A stretch of 35,052 nucleotides of DNA from a virus. This document shows, piece by piece, positions 3,089-33,718 of the stretch (its first letter is position 1; the number at the start of each line of letters is the position of its first letter). The DNA is taken from the IMG/VR virus record IMGVR_UViG_3300046694_000617, positions 1 through 35,052 of that record. The stretch is one strand, 5' to 3'. A model generated the notes under the pieces. It saw only the letters and a list, made by a program, of their open reading frames with translations, ran no database searches and was not told where the DNA came from. A program made the position numbers and the translations under genes.

Positions 3089-4809
3089 GGCCGATACGTC
3101 GATCGCCGGAACGTCCTGGTCGGCGGCTGCCGGCGCTTCGTTGACCAGCGGTGCGGACTCGTCGACGGCCGCAGGCGCCGCCGGCCCGAACGCCTCGGCG
3201 CGAACGGCATCGACGTCGACGCCCTCGTGGCGAAGCCGTCGTCCTCGTCGACAGTTCCGTCGCTGTTGACATCGTACGAGCAGATCTCGAGCGAGCGGCC
3301 GAGCATCACATCGATCAGCAGCAGCTGCAGCGCGCCGGCGTCCGCGTTGTCGATATAGCCGTCGAGGTCGGTGCTGACGTCGGACTCGTAGAGGTCATGC
3401 AGGGACGAGTCCAGATCGTGCTCCTGGATCACCGCCTTCGCGAACTCGCGCAGCGACGGCAGGCTCAGGCCCGTCACGCTCGCACGTTGGCGCAGTTGCT
3501 TATACAGTGCAAGTCGGTACGCGTTTTCCCCGGTGACGACCGCCTCTCGTTCTTGGCGTTTCTTTTGCTCGGCCTCTTCTTTCGCGGTGGCGCCGGGATC
3601 TGCGGCCTTGGCGGCATTCATCCTTTCCGCGTGTGCTTCGACGGTCTCGCAGGCGCCGACCTTCTCGAGCGCGGTCTGAATGTCAGCACGCTTGTACAGC
3701 GGCGTCAGGCTGCCGTCGTCCCTTTTCGCGTAGCTGGCGACAGCCGGGAGCATGTCTTCCTTCAGGTAGTCCTTGACGTCGCCGTTGTTCTTCGTCGACG
3801 GCGCATTGCGCCTGAAATACCAGAGGCCCATGTCAGCGGTCACCAGCTCGCTTTCGTGGTTCCAGCGGCGCGACAGCGTTTGCGATGCTTCGTCGCCCTC
3901 GAGGACTGGGATGCCTTGCTTGTTCGCCTGGACCAGGAGCGCTGCGCCGTGTGCCGCGCGCTTTTCCGCGAAGCAGTCGGGGTCAGTGCAGACGTTTGCA
4001 TCGATGCCTTCAAATACCTCAGGTTGGTTCCCGGTGCGCTTCGGGCACTTCGTGCATGCGCCGGCCGCGGCCAGCAACTTCGCGTCGGTTATGGAGAAGA
4101 CTGCCGTGCTCAGCTTCAACATGTATCGCCCCTGGATATGGGACGCAGCCGAGCGGTGCGACATTGGCTCGCTGCCGCGGCCATATGGCTCAAGGATTTC
4201 CTGTGCAGCTTTCGCCTGCAGCGCCGGGACCGGGATGCGAGCGATCAGCAGCGCCGTCGACGCTGACAGTTTGTTGTCCAGGAAGAGCTCGCGCACGTCG
4301 CTGCTCAGGGCGCACAGTTTGAGGCGGCCATAGATATAGGCGCGAGACTTCTTGACCTCGTCCACCAGCTGGTCTGCCGTGAAGCCGTGCTGCAGCATGA
4401 GTAGCTGGTAGCCCTCGGCCTCTTCCATCGGGTGCGGATCTTCCCGCTGCAGGTTTTCGAGGATGCGGATCTTGGCGGCGTCCAGGTCGCTGAGCTGCCG
4501 GCACAGTGCCGGAATATGGGTCTTGCCGGCGAGTTTAGATGCGCGGAACCGACGCTCGCCGGCCACGATCTCGAATTCCGCCGGCGCTTCCACGGTCGGG
4601 GTCACCGGGCGGATCAGGATCGCCTGGGCGACGCCCATTGCCTTGATGCTCTCGGCGAGTTCCTGCAGGGCCTGTTCATTGAAACGCTTACGGTTGTCCG
4701 GCGAGGCGCGCAGCTTCGCGATCTCATACAGACCATACGTTCCCTGGTCACCTACGAGCTCGTCGACGATGGTAGTTTGTTCAGTAGTGGCGAGTGCGGT
4801 CGAGGTCAT
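3055..4809 (-). CDS. parB: ParB/RepB/Spo0J-family DNA-binding protein, 3' end out of frame
   Basis: ParB-like protein. Residues about 24-110 form the ParB N-terminal (CTPase/nuclease-like) domain with GERRFRASKLAG at 84-95. The ENLQREDPHPMEEAEGY box is at 118-134, and a KorB/HTH region at about 138-195 should recognise a palindromic centromere-like site. A cysteine cluster at about 256-285 (CTKCPKR then CTDPDC) may bind zinc. No ParA ATPase is encoded nearby, so active partition is unlikely; phage ParB-like proteins may act as regulators or nucleases. It starts at an ATG preceded by GGAG and overlaps the upstream stop by ATGA. From about residue 528 the frame becomes R/P/S-rich and stops at 3055, whereas the -1 frame continues into the 2540-3088 segment. 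One restored base would give about 756 residues. Confidence 0.88.
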   Translation of the reverse strand: MTSTALATTEQTTIVDELVGDQGTYGLYEIAKLRASPDNRKRFNEQALQELAESIKAMGVAQAILIRPVTPTVEAPAEFEIVAGERRFRASKLAGKTHIPALCRQLSDLDAAKIRILENLQREDPHPMEEAEGYQLLMLQHGFTADQLVDEVKKSRAYIYGRLKLCALSSDVRELFLDNKLSASTALLIARIPVPALQAKAAQEILEPYGRGSEPMSHRSAASHIQGRYMLKLSTAVFSITDAKLLAAAGACTKCPKRTGNQPEVFEGIDANVCTDPDCFAEKRAAHGAALLVQANKQGIPVLEGDEASQTLSRRWNHESELVTADMGLWYFRRNAPSTKNNGDVKDYLKEDMLPAVASYAKRDDGSLTPLYKRADIQTALEKVGACETVEAHAERMNAAKAADPGATAKEEAEQKKRQEREAVVTGENAYRLALYKQLRQRASVTGLSLPSLREFAKAVIQEHDLDSSLHDLYESDVSTDLDGYIDNADAGALQLLLIDVMLGRSLEICSYDVNSDGTVDEDDGFATRASTSMPFAPRRSGRRRLRPSTSPHRWSTKRRQPPTRTFRRSTYRPCSTATWSTSS

Positions 4810-7304: not shown

Positions 7305-7713
7305 GCATACTGGCCCGCGCGAGGGGAGCCGTGCGCATCGCGCGCTCAAGGCCCTGCATGAGCACGGCGACATGTACGAAGCGGCCTGGATGATCAAGGC
7401 GGCCTACGACCATTCGCCATCCGAGTTCTATCGCTCCGTGGTCCAGCCGCTGCTCGGCTGGAAGCTCGTCAAGGAGCACGGCATTTCTTATCGAGTCACG
7501 CCAGCTGGCCGCGCGTGCCTGGGTGTGTCGGACGTGCCGGATGTCGAGCCGGTGATCACGCCCGGCACTTACGTCCCGCCCATGGGGCGCCCGCTGTCGG
7601 CCCAGTATCGTCCTGGGCTGCGCGTGATGCGCCCTGGTGCGCTTGATTTTCGTGAGATTCCCTCCCGCATCGGCGAACAGATCATCCAATATGGAGCGAA
7701 GGCAGCAGCGTGA
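7297..7713 (+). CDS. Hypothetical protein with winged-helix-like N-terminus
   Basis: About 138 residues from a GTG at 7297 (GGGGAG upstream; a second GTG lies at 7294). Residues about 12-75 read like a winged helix: helix RAHRALKALHEHG, helix EAAWMIKAAYDH, then PSEFYRSVVQPLLGWKLVKEHGISYRVTPAGR, where the last part resembles a wing ending in TPAGR. The tail to 138 is Pro-rich and basic. It lies between the YmfL-like gene (8-bp overlap) and the replication gene (GTGA overlap), so a role in DNA replication initiation or its regulation is plausible. No family name can be given. Confidence 0.7.
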   Translation: MAKHTGPREGSRAHRALKALHEHGDMYEAAWMIKAAYDHSPSEFYRSVVQPLLGWKLVKEHGISYRVTPAGRACLGVSDVPDVEPVITPGTYVPPMGRPLSAQYRPGLRVMRPGALDFREIPSRIGEQIIQYGAKAAA

Positions 7714-10265
7714 CGCTTGATGATTTTTCAGCAGTTGGGCGCGAAGCGCTCAACTCTATTGAGACTCTGCTGCAGGAGTGGTTCCCGAACGGCATCAGGA
7801 CAGGGCACGAGTTCTGCATTGGGTCTCGGGCGGGCGAAGCCGGGCAGTCGCTGCGAATCCGACTCAACGGCGAAAAAGCCGGCGTTTGGTGCGACTTTTC
7901 TGACGACGGCGCCGCCGGCGGCGATCTGATCTCTCTTTATGCCTTTATCCACGGCCTCCGGCCTTGGCAAGCCTGCAGAGCTATCGCCGATCGCCTCGGC
8001 ATCACAATTGCGGACGTCACGAATAGGGGAAGCGAACCCATTAAACCGTTCGCCAAGCCTGGCGCAGCACGACCGAATCCCGCGCCTGCGCCAGCGGACA
8101 AAGGGGTAGAAGCACCGGCCGAGGGCAAGAAGCGCACGCCCTGGACGCCAATTTTGCCTGTCCCGGACAGCGCAGGGCCATACCCGAAGGCGCATGTCGT
8201 CCGTGGCCGTCCCGAAGCGCATTGGGAGTACCGCAACGCCGCGGGCCAGCTGCTGGGCGTGATCTATCGTTTCCGCCGCTCGGACGGCGAGGGCAAGGAA
8301 GTGCTCCCGTGCGTGTTCGCCGAGCGAAGCGATACCAGGGCGCGTGAGTGGCGGTGGCTGGCCTTCCCCGAGCCGCGTCCGCTGTACCTGCGCGGGCCGC
8401 ATCGTCCCGATGTCCCTGTGCTGGTTGTCGAGGGCGAGAAGTGCGTCGACGCCGCGGTGTCGCTTTCCGAGATCCATGAGGCGTTCGAGGTGCTGTCGTG
8501 GCCAGGTGGCGGCAAGGCCGTCAAGAAAGCGGACTGGTCTGCGATCCGGGACCGCGATGTATTCCTGTGGGCCGATGCGGACGCAAAGGTCTACAAGGAA
8601 GGTCACGAGCGCGCCGGCCAGATCATGCCCGAGCACGAGCAGCCTGGAATGAGCGCGATGATCAAGATCGCCGAGATCCTGCGCGGCCAGAACTGCAACG
8701 TGTTCTTCGTCGATATCCCCGCACCAGGTGAGCAGCCTGACGGCTGGGACATCGCGGATCTGATCGCCGGCGGCGCCACCCAAGAAGAGGTCATCCGGTG
8801 GGCGACCAACCTGCGTCCGCAGGAGACAAGCCAGCCGGCCCCGGCAGTCGCGGCGCCGGCCGCAGCCGACCAGGTCGGCGCCGCCAGCCCGGCCGACGAC
8901 GTGCCTGACTGGGTCAACGAACAGATGTCTGGCCAGTTCGAGGGCGCTTCTACCCCTTTGCCGGCTGGCGCGGGCAAGGGTTCCCGCAGCTCCTTGCGGG
9001 ACAAGCTGATCCCGACCGCGAACGGCGGGATCAAGGGCTGCCGTGAAAACGTCTACCTGGTGATGGAAGGCGACGAGAAGCTGCGCGGCCTGGTTGGGCT
9101 GGATCTGTTCTCCGGGCTGCAGGTGAAGCTTCGCAAGACGCCCTGGCCGAGCACGCCGATCGAATGGACCGAGTCCGATGACTTCGAGCTGGGCATGTAC
9201 CTGGCCCAGAACTACGGCCTCGTCCTGGCCTCGGTGGGCGACATCGAGCGCGGCGTGGCGCAAGCGGCACGTCGTCACCAGTTCGACCCGGTGATCGACT
9301 ACTTCAACCGCTGCGCGGAAAGCTGGGATGGCCAGCAGCGTGTGGCCACGGCGCTGTCGCGCTATTGGGGCGCCGAAGATTCGGAATACCTGCGCCTGGT
9401 GTCGACGATGTTCTTCATCGGTATCGTCATGCGCGGCTACAAACCCGGCGTCAAGAACGACCACGCGCCGGTGTTCGAGGGTGGCCAGGGCCAAGGCAAG
9501 TCGACCGCTCTAAAGGTGCTCGGCGGCGATTGGTTCGCCGACACGCCGTTCAGGATGGGCGACAAGGACGGCTACCTGTCGATCCAGGGCGTGCTGCTGT
9601 ACGAGGTCGCCGAGCTGGAGCAGTTCAACCGCTCCGAGGTCACCGCCATCAAGGCGTTCATGTCCAGCACCGTTGACCGCTTCCGGGAGCCGTACGGCCG
9701 CCGGATGAAGAACGTGCCGCGCCGCTGCGCCTTTGCCGCGACGACGAACGAGGACGCCTATTTCAAGGACACGACGGGCAACCGTCGATTCTGGCCGGTG
9801 GAGACGGGGAAGCTGGACATCGAGGCGCTGAAGGTCGACCGCGACCAGCTGTTCGGCGAAGCGATCGCGCTCATGAAGGCCGGCGTGCAGTGGTGGCCGA
9901 CCTTCGAGCAGCAGCGCCGCCTGATCGACCCGATGCAGGACAGCCGCGAGATTCCGGACCCATGGCGTGGCCGGATCTGGGAGTTCCTGGAAGGGATCGA
10001 CTCCGAAGGCAAGCCGATGTCCGCCGGCCCGTTAAAACGCGTCACGGCGCGCGAGCTGCTCACCAGGGCGCTCCACTTCGAGTTGTCGAAGATCGGGCCA
10101 GCAAGGGCCGAAACGATGCGCGTAGGCGCGATCATGCGCAAGTTCGGCTGGACGAAACATCGGGAGTCCAGTGGCGCACGCGAGTGGTACTACGAGCGCC
10201 CCGTAGCGGAAGCGGAGCAAGGGGCAGACAAGGCCGGAGGGGACGATGAGCCGCTCCCGTTCTGA
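7710..10265 (+). CDS. Primase/VapE-type helicase, phage replication protein
   Basis: An 851-residue fusion. Residues 1-100 resemble the small domain preceding phage primases (HEFCIGSR, VWCDFSDDGAAGGD). About 230-365 is a Toprim-like region with VLVVEGEK and LWADADAK as the metal-binding acidic motifs. About 370-440 is an Ala/Pro linker. About 500-800 is the virulence-associated E (VapE) SF3-like ATPase, with Walker A GGQGQGKST near 591-599 and downstream LLYEVAELEQF and RRCAFAATTNEDAYFKD segments. It should make primers and unwind the phage origin. It starts with GTG overlapping the previous stop (GTGA). It is followed directly by the repeat array at 10362-10643, which is a good candidate for the site where it works. 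Confidence 0.92.
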   Translation: MTLDDFSAVGREALNSIETLLQEWFPNGIRTGHEFCIGSRAGEAGQSLRIRLNGEKAGVWCDFSDDGAAGGDLISLYAFIHGLRPWQACRAIADRLGITIADVTNRGSEPIKPFAKPGAARPNPAPAPADKGVEAPAEGKKRTPWTPILPVPDSAGPYPKAHVVRGRPEAHWEYRNAAGQLLGVIYRFRRSDGEGKEVLPCVFAERSDTRAREWRWLAFPEPRPLYLRGPHRPDVPVLVVEGEKCVDAAVSLSEIHEAFEVLSWPGGGKAVKKADWSAIRDRDVFLWADADAKVYKEGHERAGQIMPEHEQPGMSAMIKIAEILRGQNCNVFFVDIPAPGEQPDGWDIADLIAGGATQEEVIRWATNLRPQETSQPAPAVAAPAAADQVGAASPADDVPDWVNEQMSGQFEGASTPLPAGAGKGSRSSLRDKLIPTANGGIKGCRENVYLVMEGDEKLRGLVGLDLFSGLQVKLRKTPWPSTPIEWTESDDFELGMYLAQNYGLVLASVGDIERGVAQAARRHQFDPVIDYFNRCAESWDGQQRVATALSRYWGAEDSEYLRLVSTMFFIGIVMRGYKPGVKNDHAPVFEGGQGQGKSTALKVLGGDWFADTPFRMGDKDGYLSIQGVLLYEVAELEQFNRSEVTAIKAFMSSTVDRFREPYGRRMKNVPRRCAFAATTNEDAYFKDTTGNRRFWPVETGKLDIEALKVDRDQLFGEAIALMKAGVQWWPTFEQQRRLIDPMQDSREIPDPWRGRIWEFLEGIDSEGKPMSAGPLKRVTARELLTRALHFELSKIGPARAETMRVGAIMRKFGWTKHRESSGAREWYYERPVAEAEQGADKAGGDDEPLPF

Positions 10266-10956: not shown

Positions 10957-11928
10957 ATGGGAGCAGGATTGGAAATGGAAGCAATTTTTGGTAGCACCGG
11001 GCAGGCGGTGCACGTGGCGTTCATGGTGATGAGCCAGCCGGCAATGCAGGACGCGCCCCTGCGCAAGGCGCTGATCCGGGCCTTGGAGTCGATCCACCTG
11101 GAAGGCCAGCAGCGCGAGTGGCTCGACCAGCTGCGCGGGACGCCTTCGGAGTCGGTGAACTTCGGTGGCCTCAGCGGTGACGAAGTTCGTGCGCAGTGCG
11201 TGATGATCATCCAGGCGGTCAAGCACCTGCCTGATGCAGAGAAGTGGACCCTGCAGGCCAAGTACGGCTATGTCGAATTCGAGGACATGACCGATGGCGA
11301 CCTGACGGGGCAGCAGCTGCTCGACGCACTCAACCGGGCGACTGCCGACGTCGATGCAGCGCGTGAGAAGATGCGCCAGGCGCGCCTGGCTCTGGATGCA
11401 GCGCGGGAGCAACACCTGGCGTACGAGGGTCGGATTGCGCCGGCGGCGACCGAGGCATCGGTGAAGGAGACGTACTACGCCGCCCGGGACGATGTGCGGG
11501 ACGCCGGCGCCGCGCTGGCCCAGGCCGAATCAGTCGCGCGCCAGGTGCAGATCGCGGTCGATCGGGTGAAGGGCAGCACCGTGACCGATGGTGGTGGACC
11601 TGCGGCCGGGCAGGGTGGCCGGCGCTTCGCCTTCTCGGCGGAACGCATTGACGCCATCAAGGGCCTGTCCGACTGGTTCCGGCCGATCTTCCCGCGGATC
11701 AAGCCGCTCGCGATCGACTGCATGCTGGGCCGCTTGTTCGCCAACCACGCCAAGGTCGGCATAACGTTCAGGGACCTGGCTGGATCCTTTGGCGGCAACC
11801 CGATGCTCTACCAGCGCGCCTCGTTCAAGATGCAGAACCACCTCCGTCAGCTCGAGCAGTTGGCCCTGCAGCACCTCGAGCAACGGCTTGTGAAGGATGG
11901 TGTTGCACTGCCGACAGAAATTGATTGA
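10957..11928 (+). CDS. Candidate late-gene regulator in the position of lambda Q
   Basis: A 323-residue protein from the ATG at 10957 (GGAAGGGG upstream). About 45-105 is a helical region with SGDEVRAQCVMIIQAVKHLP and EKWTLQAKYG. About 118-205 is an Ala-rich coiled coil (ADVDAAREKMRQARLALDAA). About 225-323 is a basic helical domain with CMLGRLFANHAKVGITFRDL and YQRASFKMQNHLRQLEQLAL that may be a helix-turn-helix reading DNA. I do not recognise a named family. Its place at the end of the early operon, with a strong promoter overlapping its stop codon and a series of terminators beyond, is the genomic position of an antiterminator such as Q. That function is inferred from layout. Confidence 0.6.
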   Translation: MGAGLEMEAIFGSTGQAVHVAFMVMSQPAMQDAPLRKALIRALESIHLEGQQREWLDQLRGTPSESVNFGGLSGDEVRAQCVMIIQAVKHLPDAEKWTLQAKYGYVEFEDMTDGDLTGQQLLDALNRATADVDAAREKMRQARLALDAAREQHLAYEGRIAPAATEASVKETYYAARDDVRDAGAALAQAESVARQVQIAVDRVKGSTVTDGGGPAAGQGGRRFAFSAERIDAIKGLSDWFRPIFPRIKPLAIDCMLGRLFANHAKVGITFRDLAGSFGGNPMLYQRASFKMQNHLRQLEQLALQHLEQRLVKDGVALPTEID

Positions 11929-11954
11929 CTGCATTGTTACAGCTAGGATATATT
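11925..11954 (+). promoter_or_regulatory. Candidate late promoter (PR'-like)
   Basis: TTGACT (11925-11930) and TATATT (11949-11954) are separated by 18 bp. The -35 overlaps the stop codon of the putative late regulator. Transcription should start near 11961 and meet the first terminator about 75 nt later, giving a short leader RNA unless the polymerase is modified. Confidence 0.65.
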
Positions 11955-11997
11955 TTCGTCATTCTCGGAGTAATTGCGAACTGAGAACGAATTCTCG

Positions 11998-12035
11998 AAA
12001 AAGCCCTGCCCGGTTCACGCCGCGCGGGGCTTTTT
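11998..12035 (+). terminator. Strong Rho-independent terminator (tR'-like), first of three
   Basis: A 12-bp stem, AAAAAGCCCTGC against GCGGGGCTTTTT with one G-T pair, and a 14-nt loop, ending in TTTTTCTTT. It can act in both directions. It lies about 75 nt after the late promoter start, so it would stop late transcription unless antiterminated. Confidence 0.85.
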
Positions 12036-12179
12036 CTTTGCACCGTGTCTCCTCGTGCTGCCCACGACAGCACTTTGCCGGCAGGCTTGCGCCACCGGCG
12101 TCTTTTATTCTCAACGACGAAAGGTGGTGATCCTGTCTCGATCCGCTCCAAAGCGGGGGATACAAAGCATCATTCGTTT

Positions 12180-12201
12180 GCCCGGACCGCCGGGCTTTTT
12201 T
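12180..12201 (+). terminator. Rho-independent terminator, second of three
   Basis: GCCCGG and CCGGGC form a 6-bp stem with a 4-nt loop followed by six T residues. It lies between the late promoter and the small gene at 12275. Confidence 0.8.
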
Positions 12202-12274
12202 ATTTGTGGTTGCGGAACGTCGATTATACTAACTTGGCCGGATGGCAATTTGTCCCTAACTTTGAAAGTGAGCT

Positions 12275-12475
12275 ATGGCAGAAAATGTTACGGTTTCGGG
12301 TCCAGTTAGAGTTCAATCGGACACCGCTGAGCGCGTCGCCTACGATTTGATGGTGAAGATTATGACTAACGAGACTACCGTGTCCAAGGACAGGCGCTAT
12401 TACTTTGATCTCTACAGTCAATGCCGCCAACTCGTGAATGGTGTGCTCCCCGATAATATTTATCCGAAGGTGTAG
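12275..12475 (+). CDS. Small hypothetical phage protein
   Basis: A 66-residue soluble protein beginning MAENVTVSGPVRVQSDTAER, with a helical middle (VAYDLMVKIM) and a Tyr-rich YYFDLYSQCRQLV segment. Similar short proteins with a VTVxGxVRVQSD start occur, as I recall, in other betaproteobacterial prophages; no function is known to me. The gene is AT-richer than its neighbours. It is bracketed by terminators on both sides (12180-12201 and 12511-12538), and a TATACT element with a weak -35 lies 45 bp upstream. It may therefore be a separate unit, perhaps expressed in the lysogen, rather than part of the late operon. Confidence 0.75.
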   Translation: MAENVTVSGPVRVQSDTAERVAYDLMVKIMTNETTVSKDRRYYFDLYSQCRQLVNGVLPDNIYPKV

Positions 12476-12510
12476 GCCGCTGATCTGTACAGCACGGCTG
12501 AAACTGATTC

Positions 12511-12538
12511 AAAAGCCCGGTTTTGCCGGGCTTTTTTT
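12511..12538 (+). terminator. Rho-independent terminator, third of three, next to a structural gene start
   Basis: AAAAGCCCGG and CCGGGCTTTT form a stem with a 5-nt TTTTG loop and a run of seven T residues. It ends only 17 bp before the gpZ-like start codon at 12555, leaving no room for a promoter, so the gpZ-like gene must be read through this terminator. Confidence 0.88.
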
Positions 12539-12554
12539 ATTCCTGGAGCACAGC

Positions 12555-13130
12555 ATGGCAATCGCCGTCAACGTACGCGGAAGCATGGAGCGTGTCATTG
12601 CAGCTCAGCGGCGCAACACCCGCGAAGTACGAGAGGTTGCTGTGCCCCGTGCCCTGAACAAGATGATCGACCAGGTCAACACCGCGAGCGCACGGGAGAT
12701 CCGCGCGACCGGCTACAAGCTGAAGATCAGCGACATCAAGAAGGGCCTGAAGAAAACACGGGCCACGGCCCGCGCCCTGACTGCACGCGTTACCGCATCG
12801 GGCAAGCCCATCGCCCTGCAGGCGTACGGCGCGCGCCAGACCGGCAAGGGTGTGTCGGTCGATGTCCTGAACGGCCGCAAGGTCGTCACCCATGCGTTCA
12901 TCGCGACGATGCCGAACGGGCATAAGCATGTGCTGGTCCGTATCGGCAAGACCCACAAGAAGAAGCGCAAGGGCGACAGCACCCAGTGGAGCGGCCTGCC
13001 GATCAAGGCGCTGTTCGGACCATCGGTCCCTGACGGCATGGCCAACGTCGCCGTGCAGGCAGCGCTGCAGCGCCTGGTGATAGAGAAGTTCCCCACCATC
13101 CTGCGTCAGCAGATGGACCGACTCACGTGA
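12555..13130 (+). CDS. gpZ-like minor tail protein
   Basis: A 191-residue basic protein matching the shape of lambda gpZ (minor tail Z, about 190 residues), a tail-completion protein. Features are an early VPRALNKMIDQVNTASAREI helix at about 29-50, a basic KKGLKKTRAT segment at about 64-74 and the characteristic HAFIATMPNGHKHVLVRIGK stretch at about 113-132. Near the end lies LPIKALFGPSVP. The ATG has GGAG at 7 bp. In lambda Z lies between FII and U; here FII-like (20591) and U-like (20885) are adjacent, and the Z-like gene sits on the other side of cos. It is the first gene after the terminator series. Confidence 0.8.
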   Translation: MAIAVNVRGSMERVIAAQRRNTREVREVAVPRALNKMIDQVNTASAREIRATGYKLKISDIKKGLKKTRATARALTARVTASGKPIALQAYGARQTGKGVSVDVLNGRKVVTHAFIATMPNGHKHVLVRIGKTHKKKRKGDSTQWSGLPIKALFGPSVPDGMANVAVQAALQRLVIEKFPTILRQQMDRLT

Positions 13131-13138
13131 GGATAGCC

Positions 13139-13294
13139 ATGACCCTGAACATCCAACGTCGCACCCTCGGCGGCCGCATCCGCCGCCTGCCCCGCGTCGT
13201 GCGTGGGCACTACCGCATCCTTCGTCGCTATGCCACCCGCTGGGACGCGGCCTGCGCCTCGCTCCGCCTGGCCTGGGCCACGGTCGGCCCGTGA
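13139..13294 (+). CDS. 51-residue arginine-rich protein
   Basis: A short gene between the gpZ-like gene and the cos-like site. The start ATG is preceded by GAGG at 6 bp and lies 8 bp after the previous stop. The product is strongly basic (repeated RR and RLPR motifs) with a C-terminal amphipathic helix. It could bind DNA near cos, but that is only a suggestion from charge and position. No homolog is recognised. Confidence 0.5.
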   Translation: MTLNIQRRTLGGRIRRLPRVVRGHYRILRRYATRWDAACASLRLAWATVGP

Positions 13295-13302
13295 TGTTTC
13301 CC

Positions 13303-13372
13303 GGGTCCTTCCTGGGGACCTAACCCTGCGGGTGCGAAGACCCCGATTTCTCACTGGTTCTGAAAATCGCAA
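13303..13372 (+). other. Putative cos packaging site
   Basis: This region contains GGGTCCTT (13303-13310), identical to the lambda cosQ element I recall. A GC-rich cosN-like core follows, GCGGGTGCGAAGACCCC (13328-13344), and then a CTGAAAATCGC stretch that parallels the ATGAAAATTTT of lambda just right of cosN. It is non-coding and ends 26 bp before the small terminase start, where cos lies in lambdoid phages. The exact nick positions cannot be read from sequence. Confidence 0.6.
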
Positions 13373-13398
13373 GGGGGGTGTAAAACAAGGGAGTTCAC

Positions 13399-13920
13399 AT
13401 GCCTACTCAACAAGAGATCGCCGGCCACCTCGACCTGGCGCAGCAGAACGTGTCCGAGCTGATGAAGAAGCTCGGCATCGATTGGAAGACCGCGACGCTG
13501 GACGAAATCCGCGTCGCGTACATCCGCCAGCTGCGCTCCCAGGCCGCCGGCCACCGCACCGATGACGGTCTCGACCTGGTGCGCGAGCGCGTGCTGACCG
13601 AGCGGGTCGATCGCGAACTCAAACAGTACACCCTGGCCGAAAAGAAGGGCCAGCTCATCAACGTCGCCCAGCTCGAGCCCGAGCTGCAGCAGATGGTCGG
13701 AGCATTCCGCACCGAGCTGCTCGCGCGCGACGACAAACTCAAGGCCGACCTCGACCAGCTGCACGGCATCGATGTCGATATCCAGGTGCTCAATGCATAC
13801 ACCACCGACGCACTCCGTCACCTCGCTCGATACGACGCCCGCCGTCCAGGCGCTGCTGGGGCGACTGGTGCAGTCGATCGAGCCGACGCCCCAGGTCCCG
13901 CTGACCCAATGGGCGCGTGA
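13399..13920 (+). CDS. Terminase small subunit, Nu1-like
   Basis: DNA-recognition subunit of the packaging terminase, 173 residues. The N-terminal winged-helix/HTH lies at about 3-25 (QQEIAGHLDLAQQNVSELMKKLGI) and should bind cosB-like DNA. About 55-110 is helical (LVRERVLTERVDRELKQYTL) and about 120-147 ends in GIDVDIQVLN and LRHLARYD. The last 26 residues are Ala/Gly/Pro-rich and overlap the beginning of the large subunit by 128 bp in another frame, so they may be a dispensable extension. A GGGAG Shine-Dalgarno precedes the ATG. It is the first gene right of cos. Confidence 0.9.
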   Translation: MPTQQEIAGHLDLAQQNVSELMKKLGIDWKTATLDEIRVAYIRQLRSQAAGHRTDDGLDLVRERVLTERVDRELKQYTLAEKKGQLINVAQLEPELQQMVGAFRTELLARDDKLKADLDQLHGIDVDIQVLNAYTTDALRHLARYDARRPGAAGATGAVDRADAPGPADPMGA

Positions 13921-15937
13921 AAACCGCCGCCTCTCGGCCAAGGCCTCGGCGCTGCCGGGCCGGTATAACCCGGACCTGACGCCCTGGATCTCGGGCATGC
14001 ATGAAGCGCTGGACGACCCGGCCGTGTTCAAGGTCGTCTCCATGAAGTCCGCCCAGGTGGCGTGGACCGATGGCGTCGTGCTCAACTGGATCGGTAAGAA
14101 GATCGACATCGATCCGACGCCGATGATCGTCATGTTCGCCAAGGAAAAGGCGGCCAAGGAATTCAACGAAGAGAAGCTGACGCCGATGGCCGAGGTGACG
14201 CCGGCCGTCGCCAACAAGCTGCTGCTCGACCGGCGCAAGTCCGGCGACAACCGCTGGGACTACAAGAGCTTCCCTGGCGGCTTCCTCAAGTTGGTCGGCT
14301 CGAACTCGCCGTCGTCCGTGAAGTCGACGCCGGCGCCGTGCGTCGTGGTCGAGGAACCGGACGACTGTAACGACAACGTCCGCGACCAGGGCGACACGAT
14401 CACCCTGCTCGAGGAGCGGACCAAGACCTACAAGCGCCGCAAGGTGGTGTTCGGCGGCACGCCGACGATCAAGGGCGTCTCGCGTATCGAAGCCGCCTAC
14501 CTGGCCAGCGACCAACGCAAGTTCATGATCCCGTGCCATGACTGCGGCGAGTCGCACGTGCTCATGTGGGAGAACGTACGCGCGCAGGAAGACCCGGCTT
14601 TCAACCATGAAGTCTTCGGCCACGTCCGGCCGGAGACCGCGCGCTACATCTGCCCGCACTGCGGCAGCGCCTGGACCGATGCTGAGAAAAACAGGAACGT
14701 CCGCCGCGGCGTATGGATCGCGACGGCGCCGTTCTACGGCATCGCCGGCTTCTACATCAACGAGTTGTACTCGCCGTTCCCGGGCAGCACGCTGCAGATC
14801 TTGATGGAGAAGTACCTGACTGCGGAGCACCTGCTGCGCCAGGGCGACGACACGAAGATGCGCGCCTTTCGCAACAGCAGCGAGGGCCTGACCTACGAGT
14901 ACAAGAGCGATCTGCCGAAGGCCGACGTCCTGTCTGAGCGCGCCGAAGACTACGACGAGAAGTCGGTGCCGTGGGGCGGCATGATCCTCACGGCCGGCGT
15001 CGACGTGCAGCACGACCGCCTGGCCGTCGTAATTCGCGCCTGGGGCCGGGGCATGGAAAGTTGGCTCGTCTACTGGGGCGAGATCCACGGTCAGACCCTG
15101 ATCCCGAACGCCGGCGCCTGGGTGGATCTCGACATGCTGCTGACCGCCGACTTCGTCCACGCGAGCGGCAACGTCCTGCGGATTCGCGCGGCGTCACTCG
15201 ACTCGTCGGACGGCGCGACGACAGATGCCGTGTACGCCTACGTCCGCAGCCGAAAGGGGCGCGGCTACATGGCGATCAAGGGCGCCTCCGAGCAGTCAGC
15301 CGATACGAAGGAGATCTTCTCGAAGCCGAAGACGTCGGTCGACTGGAACAAGAAGCACAAGCCCCATCCCTCCGGCGTGACGCCGTACATCGTCGGCACG
15401 CACCGGGCCAAGGACCTCATCGTCGACGGCCGCCTGCGCTTGACCGGCAACGGCCCCGGGCGCTTGCACTGGTACAAAACGGTGCGGCCGGACTACTGGG
15501 ACCAGATCACCAGCGAGATCAAGGTCCCGCACAAGACCCAGAAGAATCGCAAGGTCTGGGCCAAGCGTGCCAGCACGCGCAACGAAGCGCTGGACTGCGA
15601 GGTCTATGCGCTGCACTCGGCGATGTCGCTCAAGCTGCACTTGCTCAAGCCGAGCCACTGGGACGCGATCGAGGAGCAGCTGCGGCAGAAGCAGATATTC
15701 GCCGAGGCATCGGCGCCGGCGACGGCTGATCCCGACCTCATGGATGCACCTGACGACACCGGCGCCGATGTGCCGGCTGCAGCAGAGGAGCCTGCGGACG
15801 ACGCGCCAGAACCTGTGCAGACGTCTGCACAGCCGCAGCAGCCCGCACCGCCACCGCCGCCGGCGGTGGTAACACCGCCTCGCAAACGCGGGCGGGTACG
15901 TAGCCGAACCGGCGGATATTCCGCCACCAACTTCTGA
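13793..15937 (+). CDS. Terminase large subunit, GpA family
   Basis: Packaging motor and cos nuclease, about 714 residues from the ATG at 13793 (an ATG at 13772 in frame is possible). The N-terminal ATPase has KVVSMKSAQVAWTDGVVLNWIG in the Walker A position (GpA proteins have a deviant motif) and VVVEEPDDCNDN as Walker B. A zinc-like CHDC...CPHC pair is at about 250-290. The C-terminal nuclease has GVDVQHDRLAVVI and downstream acidic residues. The tail (about 640-714) is Pro/Ala-rich and low complexity, and carries the repeated palindrome at 15815-15830 as a VQTSA coding segment. The first 128 bp overlap the small subunit, implying coupled translation. Confidence 0.95.
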   Translation: MHTPPTHSVTSLDTTPAVQALLGRLVQSIEPTPQVPLTQWARENRRLSAKASALPGRYNPDLTPWISGMHEALDDPAVFKVVSMKSAQVAWTDGVVLNWIGKKIDIDPTPMIVMFAKEKAAKEFNEEKLTPMAEVTPAVANKLLLDRRKSGDNRWDYKSFPGGFLKLVGSNSPSSVKSTPAPCVVVEEPDDCNDNVRDQGDTITLLEERTKTYKRRKVVFGGTPTIKGVSRIEAAYLASDQRKFMIPCHDCGESHVLMWENVRAQEDPAFNHEVFGHVRPETARYICPHCGSAWTDAEKNRNVRRGVWIATAPFYGIAGFYINELYSPFPGSTLQILMEKYLTAEHLLRQGDDTKMRAFRNSSEGLTYEYKSDLPKADVLSERAEDYDEKSVPWGGMILTAGVDVQHDRLAVVIRAWGRGMESWLVYWGEIHGQTLIPNAGAWVDLDMLLTADFVHASGNVLRIRAASLDSSDGATTDAVYAYVRSRKGRGYMAIKGASEQSADTKEIFSKPKTSVDWNKKHKPHPSGVTPYIVGTHRAKDLIVDGRLRLTGNGPGRLHWYKTVRPDYWDQITSEIKVPHKTQKNRKVWAKRASTRNEALDCEVYALHSAMSLKLHLLKPSHWDAIEEQLRQKQIFAEASAPATADPDLMDAPDDTGADVPAAAEEPADDAPEPVQTSAQPQQPAPPPPPAVVTPPRKRGRVRSRTGGYSATNF
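15815..15830. repeat. Repeated palindrome GTGCAGACGTCTGCAC, copy in terL
   Basis: A perfect 16-bp palindrome that extends to 20 bp at 15813-15832, inside the low-complexity 3' part of the large terminase gene. Its codons read V-Q-T-S-A and include TCT, which looks uncommon among the serine codons of these GC-rich genes, so the DNA sequence rather than the protein may be selected. Confidence 0.85.
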
Positions 15938-15941
15938 CGCC

Positions 15942-16472
15942 ATGAATACACCAAGCAAACTCTACGCTGGCGATTCCGCCAGCTGGCATGACGATCCGTG
16001 CACCATCGGCGGCGTGCGCTATACCAGCGCCGACTGGTTACTCACCTACGAGTTTCGTGGTCCCGCCGTGCTGACGGTCGTAGCGACGAGCGACTCGGAA
16101 GGCTGGAAGGCCAGCATCACTCCGGAGCAGAGCCAGACGCTGGCCGCCGGCTCGTACCTCTGGGGTGCGTTCCTGACGCGACCAGGTGAGCGCAAGACCG
16201 CCGCGACAGGTGCCCTCGTCGTCGAGGCCGACCTGGCGACGATCACGGCGCCTATCGATGCGCGCACCGTGGCCCAGAAGGCGCTGGCCGACTGCGAAGC
16301 GGCGCTTGCCTCCTTCAAGTCGAGCGGCGGCAAGGTCCAGAGCTATACGATCGGCACCCGATCGACCACCTTCCATTCGATCCAGGACATCCTGGCCCTG
16401 CGGCGCTTCTGGCAACGCCGGCGCCAGGCGGAAACGCGGAATACCCGTCAACTGCAGGTGAGGTTCCATTGA
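15942..16472 (+). CDS. gpW-like head-tail joining protein with N-terminal beta domain
   Basis: A 176-residue protein between large terminase and portal, the position of lambda gpW. Residues about 10-105 are beta-rich and look like an immunoglobulin-like or beta-sandwich add-on. About 110-176 resemble gpW: QKALADCEAALAS helix, then SGGKVQSYTIGTRSTTFHSI and a LALRRFWQRRRQ helix. gpW is normally about 70 residues, so this is a longer, fused version. It starts 5 bp after the terminase stop without a strong Shine-Dalgarno, and its TGA overlaps the TTG start of the portal gene. Confidence 0.75.
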   Translation: MNTPSKLYAGDSASWHDDPCTIGGVRYTSADWLLTYEFRGPAVLTVVATSDSEGWKASITPEQSQTLAAGSYLWGAFLTRPGERKTAATGALVVEADLATITAPIDARTVAQKALADCEAALASFKSSGGKVQSYTIGTRSTTFHSIQDILALRRFWQRRRQAETRNTRQLQVRFH

Positions 16473-18121
16473 AAAAGTTCTACAACGAAGAGCGCGTGAG
16501 CCAGCCCGGCTCGGTGGTCCTGCGCGAGTGGAACGCCCAGCGCGCGGCGGAGAAGGCCCGGCAGTCGAAGGGCGGCACCGGCAAGCGCATGTACGCCGGC
16601 GCGGCGATGAACCGGCTGAACGGTGAATGGCCGGTGTTGAACACGTCGGCCGACAGCGAGATCATCACCAGCCTGCGCGTGCTGCGCGCACGGTCGCGCG
16701 AGCTGGTGCGCGACAACGAGTATGCCAAGGCCGCGATGCGGCTCATCAAGAACAACGTCGTCGGCTCCGGCATCGGCATGCAGGCGCAGGTGAAGACCGC
16801 CAGCGGCAAGCTGCTCGGCAGCATGAACGACGCGATCGAGGAGGCCTGGGAAGAGTGGACCGACAAGGACACCTGTGATCCGGCCGGCAAGCTGTGCTTC
16901 GCGGACATGGAGCGCCTCATCATGGGTTCCATCCCGGAGAACGGCGAGGTCTTGGTCCGCAAGATCCGGCAGCCGTTCGGCCGCGGCAAGATCCCCTACG
17001 CGCTCGAGCTGATCGAGGCCGACCGCCTGGTCGACCAGTGGAGCATGGCCCGCGCCGAGAACGGCAACGTGATCCGCATGGGCGTCGAGCAGGATCGGTG
17101 GGGGCGCGCGGTCGCGTACTGGTTCTACCCCACGCATCCCGGCGATTACCAGTTCCAGCACTTCGTCGAGAGCGCTCTGGTGCGCGTGCCTGCCGAGGAA
17201 ATCTTCCATCTGTTCGTGCCGGAACGGATCGGCCAGACACGTGGCGTGCCCTGGATGCACGCCACGATCAAGCGCCTGCGTCACATGTCCGGCTACGAGG
17301 AGGCCGAGATCGTCGCGGCCCGCGCTGCAGCGTCGATCGTCGGCATCATCGAATCGGAGGAGGACCTGGTCCCCGATGGCCTGGATGACGACGACGACGC
17401 CGGCGGTCGCGAACCGCCGGTGCTGACGATGCAGCCCGGGACGTTCCAGCAGCTGCAGCCCGGCGAGAAGTTCACCGGCTTCAATCCCAGCCGGCCGAAC
17501 ACGGGCCTGGACCCGTTCATGCGCTACATGCTCCGGGCCTTCGCTACGGGTGTGGGCGTCTCCTACGCGAGTGTGTCGAGCGACTACTCGCAGAGCAACT
17601 ACAGCAGCTCGCGCCTGGCGTTGCTCGACGAGCGCGACTGCTGGCGGGTCCTGCAGGGCTGGCTGATCCGCAATTTCCGGATGCAGGTGCACCGTGACTG
17701 GATGGAGGCCGCCGTGCTGGCGGGCGAGCTGTCGATCCCGGATTACTACACGCGGCAGAAGAAATACTGGGCGGTCCGGTTCAAACCGCGCGGTTGGTCG
17801 TGGATCGACCCGACCAAGGAAGTCGCAGCGTACGTCCAGGCGGTGCGTGCCGGCTTCATGACGGTGAGCGACGTGATCGGGCTGACGTCCGAGCACTCGG
17901 ACGCCGAGGACGTGTTCAAGCAGCGCCGCGAGGAGTTGGACCTGATGGCCGAGATGAACCTGGTATTCGACACCAACTCGGCGCAGACGGACAAGAAGGG
18001 TGCTGGCCAAGAGGGTACGTCATCCGATCTACCGGCGCCGGGCCCCGATGATGGAGGAGATCCGCCGCCGGAAGACGGAAGCGATAAGCCGGCGGCCGGC
18101 GACAGCCAGAACGACGAATAG
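16469..18121 (+). CDS. Portal protein, lambda gpB family
   Basis: The dodecameric portal through which DNA enters the head, 550 residues. It shows the family order: N-terminal RARSRELVRDNEYAKAAMRL at about 75-94, NNVVGSGIGMQAQV at about 96-109, and DMERLIMGSIPENGEVLVRK at about 145-165. Next come ALELIEADRLVDQ and the AGVGVSYASVSSDYSQSNYSS-type segment near 355-375. The C-terminal 50 residues are acidic, Gly/Pro-rich and probably disordered. The start is TTG at 16469 (GAGG upstream), overlapping the previous stop by 4 bp. A terminator follows at 18141. Confidence 0.95.
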   Translation: MKKFYNEERVSQPGSVVLREWNAQRAAEKARQSKGGTGKRMYAGAAMNRLNGEWPVLNTSADSEIITSLRVLRARSRELVRDNEYAKAAMRLIKNNVVGSGIGMQAQVKTASGKLLGSMNDAIEEAWEEWTDKDTCDPAGKLCFADMERLIMGSIPENGEVLVRKIRQPFGRGKIPYALELIEADRLVDQWSMARAENGNVIRMGVEQDRWGRAVAYWFYPTHPGDYQFQHFVESALVRVPAEEIFHLFVPERIGQTRGVPWMHATIKRLRHMSGYEEAEIVAARAAASIVGIIESEEDLVPDGLDDDDDAGGREPPVLTMQPGTFQQLQPGEKFTGFNPSRPNTGLDPFMRYMLRAFATGVGVSYASVSSDYSQSNYSSSRLALLDERDCWRVLQGWLIRNFRMQVHRDWMEAAVLAGELSIPDYYTRQKKYWAVRFKPRGWSWIDPTKEVAAYVQAVRAGFMTVSDVIGLTSEHSDAEDVFKQRREELDLMAEMNLVFDTNSAQTDKKGAGQEGTSSDLPAPGPDDGGDPPPEDGSDKPAAGDSQNDE

Positions 18122-18140
18122 TATTCAACCGAAACCAGAG

Positions 18141-18169
18141 GCCCACCGGTACGTCCCGTGGGCTTTTTT
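18141..18169 (+). terminator. Terminator inside the structural operon
   Basis: GCCCAC and GTGGGC form a stem with an 11-nt loop followed by six T residues, between the portal stop (18121) and the protease/capsid start (18183). A terminator inside a late operon would matter only for unmodified polymerase, or it could adjust expression between portal and capsid. The Shine-Dalgarno GGAGAAGG of the capsid gene follows directly. Confidence 0.82.
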
Positions 18170-18182
18170 ATTTGGAGAAGGA

Positions 18183-20210
18183 ATGTCCACCAAACAACGA
18201 AAGCTTGCAGACGGCGTCCAGAAAATGAAGCCGCTCACCCGCCATGTGCGGTTGGCTGGCGGTCAGGACGAAACGCTGGAGGTTTCCGTCGGCGTCGTTG
18301 ACCTCGAGGCCCGGACTGTCACGTTCTCGTTTTCGAGCGAGACGCCATGCCCGATGTGGTACGGCGACGAGATTCTCAGCCACGCGCCTGGGTGCGCGCG
18401 CATGCAGCGCATCAACAGCGGCGGGCCTCTGCTGTTCAACCACGACATGGACGACCTGCTCGGCGTGGTCGAGCGCGCGTGGATAGGCGCTGACAAGCGG
18501 GGCTATTGCACCGTGCGCTTCGGCAATGACGAGCGCGGCACCTGGGCGATGAACCAGGTGAACGACCGCGTGCTGCAAAACGTGTCGTTCATGTATCGCG
18601 TCTACACCTACGAATACGACGTGGACGGCGACATCTACACCGCCACCGATTGGGAGGTGTACGAAATTTCCCTTGTGACCGTGCCGGCCGATGCCTCAGT
18701 GGGCGTGGGGCGGTCCGCCGCGAGTGAAGAACTGGACGTGGTGGTCAAGCGTCCGCAATCCAACCCGGCTCCTGCCGACAATGAAGAAGGAAACGAAATG
18801 CGCTTCAAGAAGAAACAAGTCCTGCGTAATGCCGCAGGCGAAGGTGCGGCCGGTGGTGGCGCGGCCGTTGTAACCCCGCCGGCACCGGCTGTCGACCCGG
18901 CCGTAGCCGAGCAGGCGCGCCGCACCGAGATCGAGGCGATGTGCCGCCAGCACCAGGTGCCGGATGCGGTGCGGGACGCCCTGATCAACACGAACGCGCC
19001 GCTGGAGCAGGCGCGCGGCCTGGTGCTCAACCAGGTGCTGGCCCGTAACGGTGGCGTCGCCTCCCTCGGCGGCAACCCGAATCCGGACCTGACCGAGAAG
19101 GAAAAGGCGAAGTACAGCATGCTGCGCGCGCTCCGCGCGGCGATCGCCGAGCGTGAAGGCGGGGCGAATCCCTGGAAGGAGGCCGGCTTCGAGCGTGAAG
19201 TCTCCAACGACATCCGCAAGCGTTCGGGCCGCGACAGCGCCGGCCTGTTCATCCCGACCAATCTGCAGTTCGCCATGCGCGCCGCCGACTACAGCTTCGG
19301 CACCGGCGCCGGCCTGAGCGGGACCTCGGGCGGCTCCAACCTGGTGGCGACGAACCTGCTGAGCGGGAGCTTCATCGAACTGCTGCGCAACAAGGCCCGC
19401 GTGTTCGGCCTGGGCGCACAGCTGCTGTCCGGCCTGATCGGCAACGTCGACATTCCGCGCCAGAAGGCGGCGGGCTCCGTGTACTGGATCGGCGAGGGCC
19501 AGACCCTGACCCAGACCGGCGCGCAGTTCGACAAGATGTCCCTGACCCCGAAGCACATCGGCGCGCTGTCGGTCATCACCCGCAACATGCTGCAGCAGTC
19601 CTCGCCGGACGTCGAGATGATGGCCCGGGCGGATCTGCTGGCCACTGTCGCCCTCGGTATCGACCTGGCGTCCCTGTCGGGTAGCGGTACCTCGAACGTG
19701 CCGCTGGGCATCTCCAACCAGGCCGGCATCGGCTCGGTGATCGGCGGCGTGAACGGCGCTGCGCTGACCCTCGACCACCTGATCGACCTGGAAACCTTCG
19801 TTGCGTCGAACAACGCGGACGAAGGCGCGATGGCGTACCTGACCAACGCCAAGGCGGTCGGCACGCTGAAGAAGCTGAAGTCGACCACCGGCCAGTACCT
19901 GTGGACGAACTCGCCGATGGGCCAGCGCTCCGGCACGCCGGGCGAGATCAACGGCTATACCGTGGCCCGTACCAACCAGGCCCGCTCGAACCTGACCAAG
20001 GGCACTGGCACGAACCTGTCGGAGGTCTACTTCGGCGACTGGTCCCAGGTGCTGGTCGGCGAGTGGGGCGTGATCGAGATCCTGCCGAACCCGTACGCGG
20101 CTGGCATCTACGAGCAGGGCGGCATCGAACTGCGCGTGCTGCAGACCCTGGACATCGGCATCCGCCATGCCCAGTCGTTCGCGGTGATGAGCGACGCCAT
20201 CACCCAGTAA
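18183..20210 (+). CDS. Fused prohead protease and HK97-type major capsid protein
   Basis: A 675-residue polyprotein. Residues about 15-190 are an HK97-family prohead protease, with likely catalytic His87 (LLFNHDMDD) and Ser163 (YEISLVTVPAD). A linker at about 190-300 includes a KxKKKQV start-like Met206 (18798), then an Ala/Pro stretch and a helical scaffold-like segment. About 345-675 is the HK97 major capsid fold, with GSVYWIGEGQTLTQT, HIGALSVITRNML and ADLLATVALGID segments, ending in HAQSFAVMSDAITQ. The protease should cleave itself and the scaffold off the capsid domain. Many HK97-like phages encode the two separately; here they form one frame with a strong GGAGAAGG start at 18183. An internal start at 18798 could also make free capsid protein. 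Confidence 0.93.
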   Translation: MSTKQRKLADGVQKMKPLTRHVRLAGGQDETLEVSVGVVDLEARTVTFSFSSETPCPMWYGDEILSHAPGCARMQRINSGGPLLFNHDMDDLLGVVERAWIGADKRGYCTVRFGNDERGTWAMNQVNDRVLQNVSFMYRVYTYEYDVDGDIYTATDWEVYEISLVTVPADASVGVGRSAASEELDVVVKRPQSNPAPADNEEGNEMRFKKKQVLRNAAGEGAAGGGAAVVTPPAPAVDPAVAEQARRTEIEAMCRQHQVPDAVRDALINTNAPLEQARGLVLNQVLARNGGVASLGGNPNPDLTEKEKAKYSMLRALRAAIAEREGGANPWKEAGFEREVSNDIRKRSGRDSAGLFIPTNLQFAMRAADYSFGTGAGLSGTSGGSNLVATNLLSGSFIELLRNKARVFGLGAQLLSGLIGNVDIPRQKAAGSVYWIGEGQTLTQTGAQFDKMSLTPKHIGALSVITRNMLQQSSPDVEMMARADLLATVALGIDLASLSGSGTSNVPLGISNQAGIGSVIGGVNGAALTLDHLIDLETFVASNNADEGAMAYLTNAKAVGTLKKLKSTTGQYLWTNSPMGQRSGTPGEINGYTVARTNQARSNLTKGTGTNLSEVYFGDWSQVLVGEWGVIEILPNPYAAGIYEQGGIELRVLQTLDIGIRHAQSFAVMSDAITQ

Positions 20211-20282
20211 TCGCGATCTCGCGATAGGCGTTCCCGCTGTGGCGGGAGCGTTCCCCTCAATCGATCCCTACCTGGAGCAACC

Positions 20283-20591
20283 ATGCCCAAGAAATACATC
20301 ATCCGTGCCGGTTTCACCTTCCGCGGCGACGACGGCCAGCTCGCCGCCGGCGGCGACACGATCGAGCTCGAAGACGACGTGGCCAAGCTGCACGCCCACA
20401 AGCTCGAGCCTGCCGAAGAAGCCCCGAAGCGCCGCAAGCAGCAGGCGTCGTCGGCACCGGCCGGCGCCGGCAACGCGCCGAGCGCTGACCCGGCCGGCGC
20501 CGACCAAGGCACCACCGATCCGGCAGGTGCCGGCGACGATGCAGGCTCGCAGGAACCGGCCGGTACCGATCCCGCCGCTGACCCGCAGTAA
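20283..20591 (+). CDS. Small capsid-associated protein, gpFI-like by position
   Basis: A 102-residue protein. Residues 1-45 look like a small beta domain (KKYIIRAGFTFRGDDGQLAAGG) similar to short phage head proteins. The last 55 residues are low complexity, Ala/Gly/Pro/Asp-rich with repeated DPAGA units, and probably disordered. It lies immediately after the capsid gene, where lambda has FI, but sequence similarity to FI is not clear. Its stop shares one base with the next gene's start. Confidence 0.75.
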   Translation: MPKKYIIRAGFTFRGDDGQLAAGGDTIELEDDVAKLHAHKLEPAEEAPKRRKQQASSAPAGAGNAPSADPAGADQGTTDPAGAGDDAGSQEPAGTDPAADPQ

Positions 20592-20881
20592 TGGCAATGG
20601 TCGAGGATCTCGACGGCTTCCTGGAGGATCACGGGGAGCCATGCAAGGTCGGCGCCGTCGACTTCCTCGGGATCTTGGATGCCCCGGGCGAAGTGCTGAC
20701 GCTCGGCGGCGACGGCGTCATGTCGAACGAGTACGCGCTGACGATCAAGGCATCCGTCATCGGCCTGGCCGGCATCAAGCACGGCAAGCAGGTGCTGGTG
20801 GATGGCGTTGCGTTCACCGCCCGCCAGCCGCGGCCGATCGACGATGGGGCATTCGCAGTCGTCCCGCTCTCGAAGGTGTAA
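20591..20881 (+). CDS. Head-tail joining protein, gpFII-like
   Basis: A 96-residue protein in the position of lambda FII, which attaches tails to filled heads. It has an early acidic LDGFLEDHGEP segment, a central MSNEYALTIKASVIG strand region and a C-terminal VLVDGVAFTARQPRPIDDG hairpin typical of the phage head-tail attachment fold. Length is close to FII (about 117). The ATG overlaps the previous stop (TAATG). It precedes the tail terminator by only 3 bp. Confidence 0.78.
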   Translation: MAMVEDLDGFLEDHGEPCKVGAVDFLGILDAPGEVLTLGGDGVMSNEYALTIKASVIGLAGIKHGKQVLVDGVAFTARQPRPIDDGAFAVVPLSKV

Positions 20882-20884
20882 CCG

Positions 20885-21322
20885 ATGAAGCCTAGCCTCA
20901 ATCAACAAACCATCGCCCGGATCGAGGCGGCCCTGTCCGGGGCCACTGCGGCCGACGACAGGGTGTTCCGGGACCGCACGGTCCCGATCTCCCGCGACGA
21001 AACGCCGTGCATCACGATCCGCCGGGTGCGCGAGCAGAAATCGGCCGTCAGCCGAGCGGCCGATTCCGCAGTGTTCACGGCGCACGTTTGCGTCCACGTC
21101 CGTGGCGAGCCCTGGACGGACATCGCCGACCCGATCGCCGTGCAGGTTCACCAGGTGCTGTGCAGCGACGTGCAGCTGGCCCAGCTGGTGGCCAGCGTGC
21201 GCAACACAGCTTCCGAGTGGGACGACCACGAGGCGGACGAGAGCGCCGGCTGCCTGACGCTCGAGTACGAGTTCCGATACACCGCGCGTGCGGCGGACAT
21301 CACCAACAGCAACATTCTTTGA
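20885..21322 (+). CDS. Tail terminator/completion protein, gpU-like
   Basis: A 145-residue protein between the head-tail connector and the tail tube gene. An N-terminal helix (NQQTIARIEAALSG) is followed by a strand-rich core (ETPCITIRRVREQ and FTAHVCVHVRGEPW) and a C-terminal LTLEYEFRYTAR strand. The shape fits tail-terminator proteins of the gpU or DUF3168 type that cap the tail tube. Exact family is uncertain because these are weakly conserved; synteny carries most of the call. Confidence 0.7.
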   Translation: MKPSLNQQTIARIEAALSGATAADDRVFRDRTVPISRDETPCITIRRVREQKSAVSRAADSAVFTAHVCVHVRGEPWTDIADPIAVQVHQVLCSDVQLAQLVASVRNTASEWDDHEADESAGCLTLEYEFRYTARAADITNSNIL

Positions 21323-21332
21323 AGGGAAAACA

Positions 21333-31285: not shown

Positions 31286-31299
31286 AGGAGAAGAACAGT

Positions 31300-33717: not shown

Positions 33718-33718
33718 C

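Follow-up and report, generated by a model that had tools for sequence, protein, structure and literature searches.

The AlpA protein of Pseudomonas aeruginosa (PDB 7xya, 7xyb), to be distinguished from same-named bacterial proteins such as one from Corynebacterium, is a chromosomal, processive antiterminator of 176 amino acids (aa) which controls lysis and PA0807 genes (PMC7969949, PMC9371919). Its promoter carries a binding element, GGGACG, at -25 to -20 and a -10-like element, CACGAT, at -1 to +5, where altering A+1 or T+5 impairs antitermination, and five AlpA residues, R128, K138, S139, T140 and H142, matter for the binding element (PMC9371919). Here we analysed the IMG/VR virus record IMGVR_UViG_3300046694_000617 over a stretch of 35,052 bases (the window), in which a gene at 10957-11928 encodes a 323-aa protein. 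Our analysis indicates that this protein is very probably an antiterminator of the Q/AlpA type that acts at the neighbouring late promoter.

The locus resembles that of AlpA in the significant profile homology, the predicted fold and the C-terminal helix-turn-helix (HTH) of the protein, and in a DNA arrangement that places a hexamer at -25 to -20, a -10-like element at -1 to +5 and an intrinsic terminator downstream. Unlike AlpA, the window protein is phage-borne, reaches 323 aa with a coiled-coil insert and lies beside its own late promoter, where the hexamer reads GTTACA instead of GGGACG. With lambda Q and PR'-tR' the locus shares the layout only, namely a Q gene, a late promoter with an element in the spacer, a pause at +16/17 that is predicted here, a terminator and the late genes. 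Both proteins contain an inserted element, a zinc finger in lambda Q (PMC9371919) and a coiled coil in the window protein; sequence similarity between the two is absent (hhalign 0.06%). The antiterminator 21Q has a nozzle fold and a mechanism in common with AlpA (PMC9371919), but two 21Q protomers load together on a direct repeat (PMC6606751), and the element conserved here is a single hexamer. No 21Q chain matched by sequence among PDB chains at E<=10 when the profile of 52 homologs was used, and lambda Q and 21Q chains were absent among the best 50 matches of Foldseek and VIA-align, an absence that does not speak for different folds. In the Caulobacter gene transfer agent, GafZ is described as an antiterminator with an element between the -35 and -10 of a capsid-operon promoter, and its authors report no sequence or structural similarity to these antiterminators (PMC11150451).

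The 323-residue protein and its relation to AlpA

The reading frame is open from 10957 to 11928 and gives 323 aa from the ATG, or 324 from a GTG at 10954. The gene is divided as follows:

10957-11928, plus strand: putative AlpA/Q-like antiterminator gene, 323 aa, PHROG 17923
10957-11289, plus strand: N-terminal gene segment, to which a ring role would be assigned by analogy with PMC9371919
11290-11610, plus strand: coiled-coil (helical hairpin) insert, about residues 112-218, missing in short homologs
11770-11823, plus strand: C-terminal helix-turn-helix

An earlier note, made from the sequence alone, had called the protein unrecognised and had seen no similarity to known Q families, and our searches bear this out. 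The protein matches PHROG 17923, annotated as "unknown function", with E 5.6e-49. Q family models of Pfam and NCBIfam gave no match to the protein or to the homologs searched, no antitermination Q model of Pfam, the group in which 82Q was considered, occurred among 25 of the 39 families listed for 52 members, and the nearest known relative is AlpA. Against 177,635 PDB sequences, the profile of 52 homologs retrieved AlpA of P. aeruginosa as the sole significant entry (E 7.4e-8), accompanied at E<=10 by an unrelated M protein only. A profile of 12 divergent homologs reached AlpA at E 1.1e-9, with a second stretch matching the AlpA N-terminus, and hhalign of the same profile against AlpA 78-175 gave 94.3%. 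A tblastn search of phages with the AlpA 78-175 fragment returned no match.

The structure predicted for a 207-aa homolog, L056 (pLDDT 81.5, pTM 0.76), agrees with these searches. In Foldseek, AlpA took ranks 1 and 2 (E 6.8e-4 and 9.6e-4) with the next match at 0.3, and VIA-align placed residues 6-202 of the model on AlpA 4-171 over 144 residues at 2.6 A with a Z of 15.0, compared to 5.5 for the next chain. The AlpA fold, with an N-terminal exit-channel segment and a C-terminal HTH, is thereby predicted for L056 and, by extension, for the window protein. As judged from the profiles of its homologs, the 323-aa protein is a distant relative of AlpA, a phage-borne variant of the AlpA kind that stands outside the lambda Q sequence family. 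Searches with single sequences proved too weak, and two other candidates from them were rejected, namely adenine phosphoribosyltransferases, which were the sole PDB matches of the window protein alone (E 0.06 or worse), and TlmII, a large unrelated enzyme matched by homolog L127 alone (E 3e-4) and found by no profile, which we regard as spurious.

Scans of viral contigs yielded 8 close relatives, 35 loci with a profile built from those and 80 with a wider profile, the sets overlapping. A family member is also present in a Massilia genome and in Burkholderia phage BgManors32, and the family is uncommon in sampled genomes (2/399 across the order and 3/369 across the class, two of the latter being marginal). 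One bacterial genome (G254) holds four family paralogs, L048-L051, with no promoter/terminator module next door. Homologs come in two lengths: 43 of the 80 are short, at about 200-230 aa, and 35 are long, with an insert of at least 60 residues, the remaining 2 being intermediate. The coiled coil of the earlier note is indeed present, as two long helices, predicted at residues 118-156 and 163-204, that form an insert in a conserved core of about 200 residues. Since a long insert occurs in 35/80 homologs only, the coiled coil appears not to be needed for core function.

The probable late promoter module and its covariation with the protein

Directly behind the gene lies a module with the following elements:

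11925-11954, plus strand: late promoter, with -35 TTGACT at 11925-11930, an 18-bp spacer and -10 TATATT at 11949-11954
11936-11941, plus strand: putative antiterminator-binding hexamer GTTACA at -25 to -20, in the register of the AlpA element
11960-11965, plus strand: -10-like element CATTCT at -1 to +5, a candidate sigma-dependent pause element
11961, plus strand: probable transcription start, an A in a Y-R-Y context, placed from the -10 spacing
11967-11978, plus strand: pause-like motif GGAGTAATTGCG at +7 to +18, with the RNA 3' end at +17
11997-12038, plus strand: intrinsic terminator 1, tR'-like, with its stem at 11997-12036

The promoter is the one the earlier note had described as overlapping the stop codon, and its -35 hexamer does overlap the TGA at 11926-11928. 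A lone consensus match of this kind is weak, with 2 promoter-like sites in 4.5 kb compared to 0.8 expected in shuffles; the case for the late promoter is strong because of comparison, in which the module promoter recurs behind the stop in homologs. Among 86 sites tried, a stretch of 160 nt or more past the stop was available at 84, and these fell into 48 clusters of distinct downstream sequence. Under a strict criterion, requiring at least 5/6 matches in both hexamers and a spacing of 17 or 18, a promoter was found just behind the stop in 34 of the 48 distinct regions, against 0.0034 expected per shuffled region, and a promoter of the same register could be placed behind the stop in 46.

In most homologs the order directly 3' of the gene is promoter, hexamer at -25 to -20, -10-like element at -1 to +5, pause-like motif to +17 and terminator. 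When the 46 regions were aligned on the -10, G-25 was present in 45, C-21 in 43 and A-20 in 43, and past the start the alignment showed A+1 in 45, T+5 in 45, C+6 in 43, G+7 in 44, A+9 in 44, G+16 in 43 and a pyrimidine at +17 (Y+17) in 45. A+1 and T+5 occurred jointly in 45/46 regions and G+7, G+16 and Y+17 in 42/46, while all six listed consensus positions came together in 5/46, window included. A scan for the full module pattern gave a single match in the window, compared to no match in 100 shuffles. With promoter spacers of 17 and of 18 alike, the hexamer sits 7 bp from the -10 in 45/46 regions; in L080 this distance is 6 bp, offset by one additional base ahead of the start. The window hexamer and -10-like element share the registers of AlpA, provided that the start is 7 bases past the -10. 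A study of lambda pR' and lac associates a 6-nt spacer between -10 and start, together with a -10-like region, with a pause at 16-17 (PMC7876045); in the class described there, the -10-like region lies 11 bp past the -10 and elemental-pause motifs were not found necessary, so that the +17 motif is suggestive only.

In an HMMER alignment, family positions 159, 169, 170, 171 and 173 (L056 numbering) correspond to AlpA R128, K138, S139, T140 and H142, and in the window protein these are R272, P282, M283, L284 and Q286. The R128-aligned position is R in 43/46, and the positions aligned with K138, S139 and H142 differ from AlpA and covary with the hexamer. Before the counts, the hexamer register was shifted by hand by one base in L071 and L080, and L087, L088 and L105 were omitted. 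Met at 170 goes mostly with A at -22 (GTTACA, GTGACA), and Thr, Lys or Arg mostly with C (GTTCCA, GTCCCA). Among distinct regions there were 21 Met/A, 3 Met/other, 4 other/A and 18 other/other pairs (Fisher p 3.6e-6, kinship ignored). A tree was built from 77 proteins with the HTH left out; over its 152 branches, 16 changes at residue 170 and 12 at base -22 were reconstructed, and 9 of the 12 base changes fell on the same branch as a change at 170, where simple arithmetic gives about 1.3 if the two were independent. When 181 variable columns were ranked by association with bases -24 to -22, column 170 came first, 169 third and 173 nineteenth, and the nearly invariant column 159 ranked 119. The covariation of the residues aligned with K138 and S139 with hexamer bases argues for direct recognition. 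A divergent branch formed by L109, L123 and L127 has a recognition helix, SKSTYER, that is close to SKSTLHR in AlpA, and a hexamer, GGGACA, that is close to GGGACG; judging by these sequences, it is possibly the phage branch nearest AlpA.

Terminators, gene order and alternative explanations

Further terminators and the late genes follow the promoter:

12180-12201, plus strand: intrinsic terminator 2, hairpin 12180-12195, -12.6 kcal/mol, z -2.6
12511-12542, plus strand: intrinsic terminator 3, just ahead of the first structural gene, hairpin 12511-12535, -17.2 kcal/mol, z -4.7
12555-34785, plus strand: late block of neck/gpZ-like, TerS, TerL, joining, portal, capsid, tape measure, tail, fibre, holin, endolysin and Rz-like spanin genes
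33150-33177, plus strand: further intrinsic terminator, separating tail fibre from holin within the late block

The earlier note had claimed a 12-bp stem terminator some 75 nt past the start and two more at 12180 and 12511, and all three were recovered. Terminator 1 has 13+4 pairs around one mismatch (-28.6 kcal/mol, z -6.0) and ends about 75 nt from the probable start. Terminator 3 does lie just ahead of the first structural start codon, at a distance that needs correction, its stem ending 19 nt ahead of the ATG at 12555 and not 17 bp. The terminator at 33150-33169, a GC-rich hairpin with a T-run (-15.9 kcal/mol, z -2.8), was absent from that note. With an energy-based finder, set to call hairpins that reach at least -12 kcal/mol and have a T-run behind them, a terminator was detected within 170 nt of the probable start in 37/46 regions (median end 66), compared to 5/45 shuffled controls. 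This finder reported none for L052, L054, L069, L073, L092, L100, L109, L118 and L127, several of which show GC hairpins and T-runs by eye; a second finder, requiring unbroken stems, gave 34/46 within 260 nt and overlooked terminator 1 of the window. A sigma70-like consensus scan of the plus strand at 12040-32000 and 31900-35052 found no promoter. Within the limits of such a scan, the terminator at 33150 without a sigma70-like promoter on the plus strand leads us to expect processive readthrough.

The gene order is that of a temperate phage. In the left part of the window, an integrase-like gene, a ParB-like gene and a CI-like repressor lie on the minus strand, the last facing a Cro-like gene on the plus strand, and a VapE-type primase/helicase at 7710-10265 stands between the Cro-like gene and the antiterminator gene. 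The antiterminator gene is followed by the structural and lysis block, whose genes are on the plus strand only; the gene and its module therefore lie where the early region of a temperate phage gives way to the late region. The family was found in 10/10 relatives' records searched. A GpA-type large terminase is present in 4 of the 10, in each case on the same strand and about 1.6-2 kb downstream of the family gene, as in the window, and the remaining 6 may use other terminases.

The lambda PR'-tR' and Q-like antitermination proposed in the earlier note gains support from the AlpA homology, from the registers of the hexamer, -10-like element and pause-like motif, and from the helix/DNA covariation. 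In the mechanism we favour, sigma70 polymerase would initiate near 11961 at the promoter overlapping the stop codon of the antiterminator gene and would be held paused by the -10-like element at -1 to +5 and the motif ending at +17. The antiterminator would load at the late promoter, probably with its N-terminal segment inserted in the exit channel, and enable RNA polymerase to pass the terminators at 11997, 12180, 12511 and 33150, so that the structural and lysis genes would be transcribed, presumably with late timing. Without the protein, transcription would stop after about 75 nt.

The alternative that survives best, although we judge it unlikely, casts the protein as an activator of transcription or a sigma-like factor; it would bring polymerase to the promoter, and the terminators would only insulate modules. 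The C-terminal HTH of one homolog matches Sigma70_r4_2 (E 4.1e-6; weaker matches in 3/52 members), and the conserved hexamer lies within the promoter. However, the promoter is already near-consensus at -35 and -10, the terminators separate it from every late gene, and the -10-like and +17 motifs past the start are conserved as well as the promoter itself; the predicted fold, moreover, matches AlpA end to end and not a sigma factor. Still less probable is a protein that acts elsewhere, with the promoter and terminators yielding a short regulatory RNA only and the late genes starting otherwise. Such an RNA would fit a leader that is short and folds, and the paralogs that lack a module in one genome, but no other plus-strand consensus promoter was found up to the window end, gene and module adjoin in 46/48 distinct regions, and helix and hexamer covary. 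That a put-like RNA element in the leader, and not the protein, overcomes the terminators is very improbable and was dropped, since the leader hairpin adjoining the start, common to close relatives, is not kept in distant homologs, whose leader runs from the pause-like motif straight into the terminator, and no Rfam family reached its gathering score anywhere in the window (local matches sub-threshold only).

Several observations weigh against Q/AlpA-type antitermination at this promoter. On the protein side, the window protein alone finds no AlpA in the PDB, and an alignment of 9 close relatives reaches it at just 27.8%, which is not significant. Because its own model, folded with 9 close relatives, is poor (pLDDT 53.9, and left out of the fold searches), the fold is taken from a homolog about 64% identical. 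As regards the covariation, the T140-aligned column 171 does not covary (rank 169/181), Met occurs together with C or T at -22 in three distinct regions, and rank 2/181 goes to column 121, which lies outside the HTH, so that shared ancestry contributes to the signal. Finally, L087 and L105 (2/48 distinct regions) are without the module, as are the neighbourhoods of the four paralogs L048-L051, and the promoter scan detects the sigma70 consensus only.

Other features of the window were noted in and near the module:

12109-12165 (approximate), plus strand: conserved non-coding element, followed by intrinsic terminator 2
12275-12475, plus strand: 66-aa open reading frame in a low-GC stretch, a possible moron

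The slot that separates the late promoter from the structural genes varies among relatives in the small reading frames it contains, and its G+C falls to 48-50% in the window. The 66-aa frame, between terminators 2 and 3 and not mentioned in the earlier note, looks like a moron; the only match to it among phages, at 46% identity, comes from Acinetobacter phage AbIPP1 and is a hypothetical protein. The element at 12109-12165 (TTCTCAACGACGAAAGGTGGTGATCC..CTCGATCCGC-loop-GCGGGGGATAC), likewise absent from that note, is nearly invariant in relatives, which do not keep its reading frames. Its pattern occurs in 38 viral contigs, many also carrying the antiterminator family, and we can only guess at a cos-type site or a structured RNA. 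Between integrase and repressor, the ParB-like protein has 584 aa (3055-4809, minus strand).

A phage branch of AlpA

The AlpA structure paper expected further Q-like antiterminators in genome databases (PMC9371919, Discussion), and the discoverers of AlpA proposed a prophage origin of the Alp system (PMC7969949). Our literature search, with most subscription papers outside its reach, returned no report of phage AlpA homologs at late promoters. More speculatively, the family may constitute a class of late antiterminators carried by phages, with homology to AlpA and a place beside the lambda, 21 and 82 families, and be a possible source of the Alp cell-death switch. The K138/S139-aligned residues and bases -23/-22 might then form a code that insulates co-resident prophages, and the insert might add a contact that AlpA lacks, with a second protomer, a Nus factor or RNA polymerase; we hold this extended picture only tentatively.

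Taken together, our results provide a likely function for the unannotated phage family PHROG 17923, which is present in dozens of viral contigs, and supply a phage-borne branch of AlpA. In addition, the natural covariation between helix and hexamer makes the specificity of an antiterminator directly testable.

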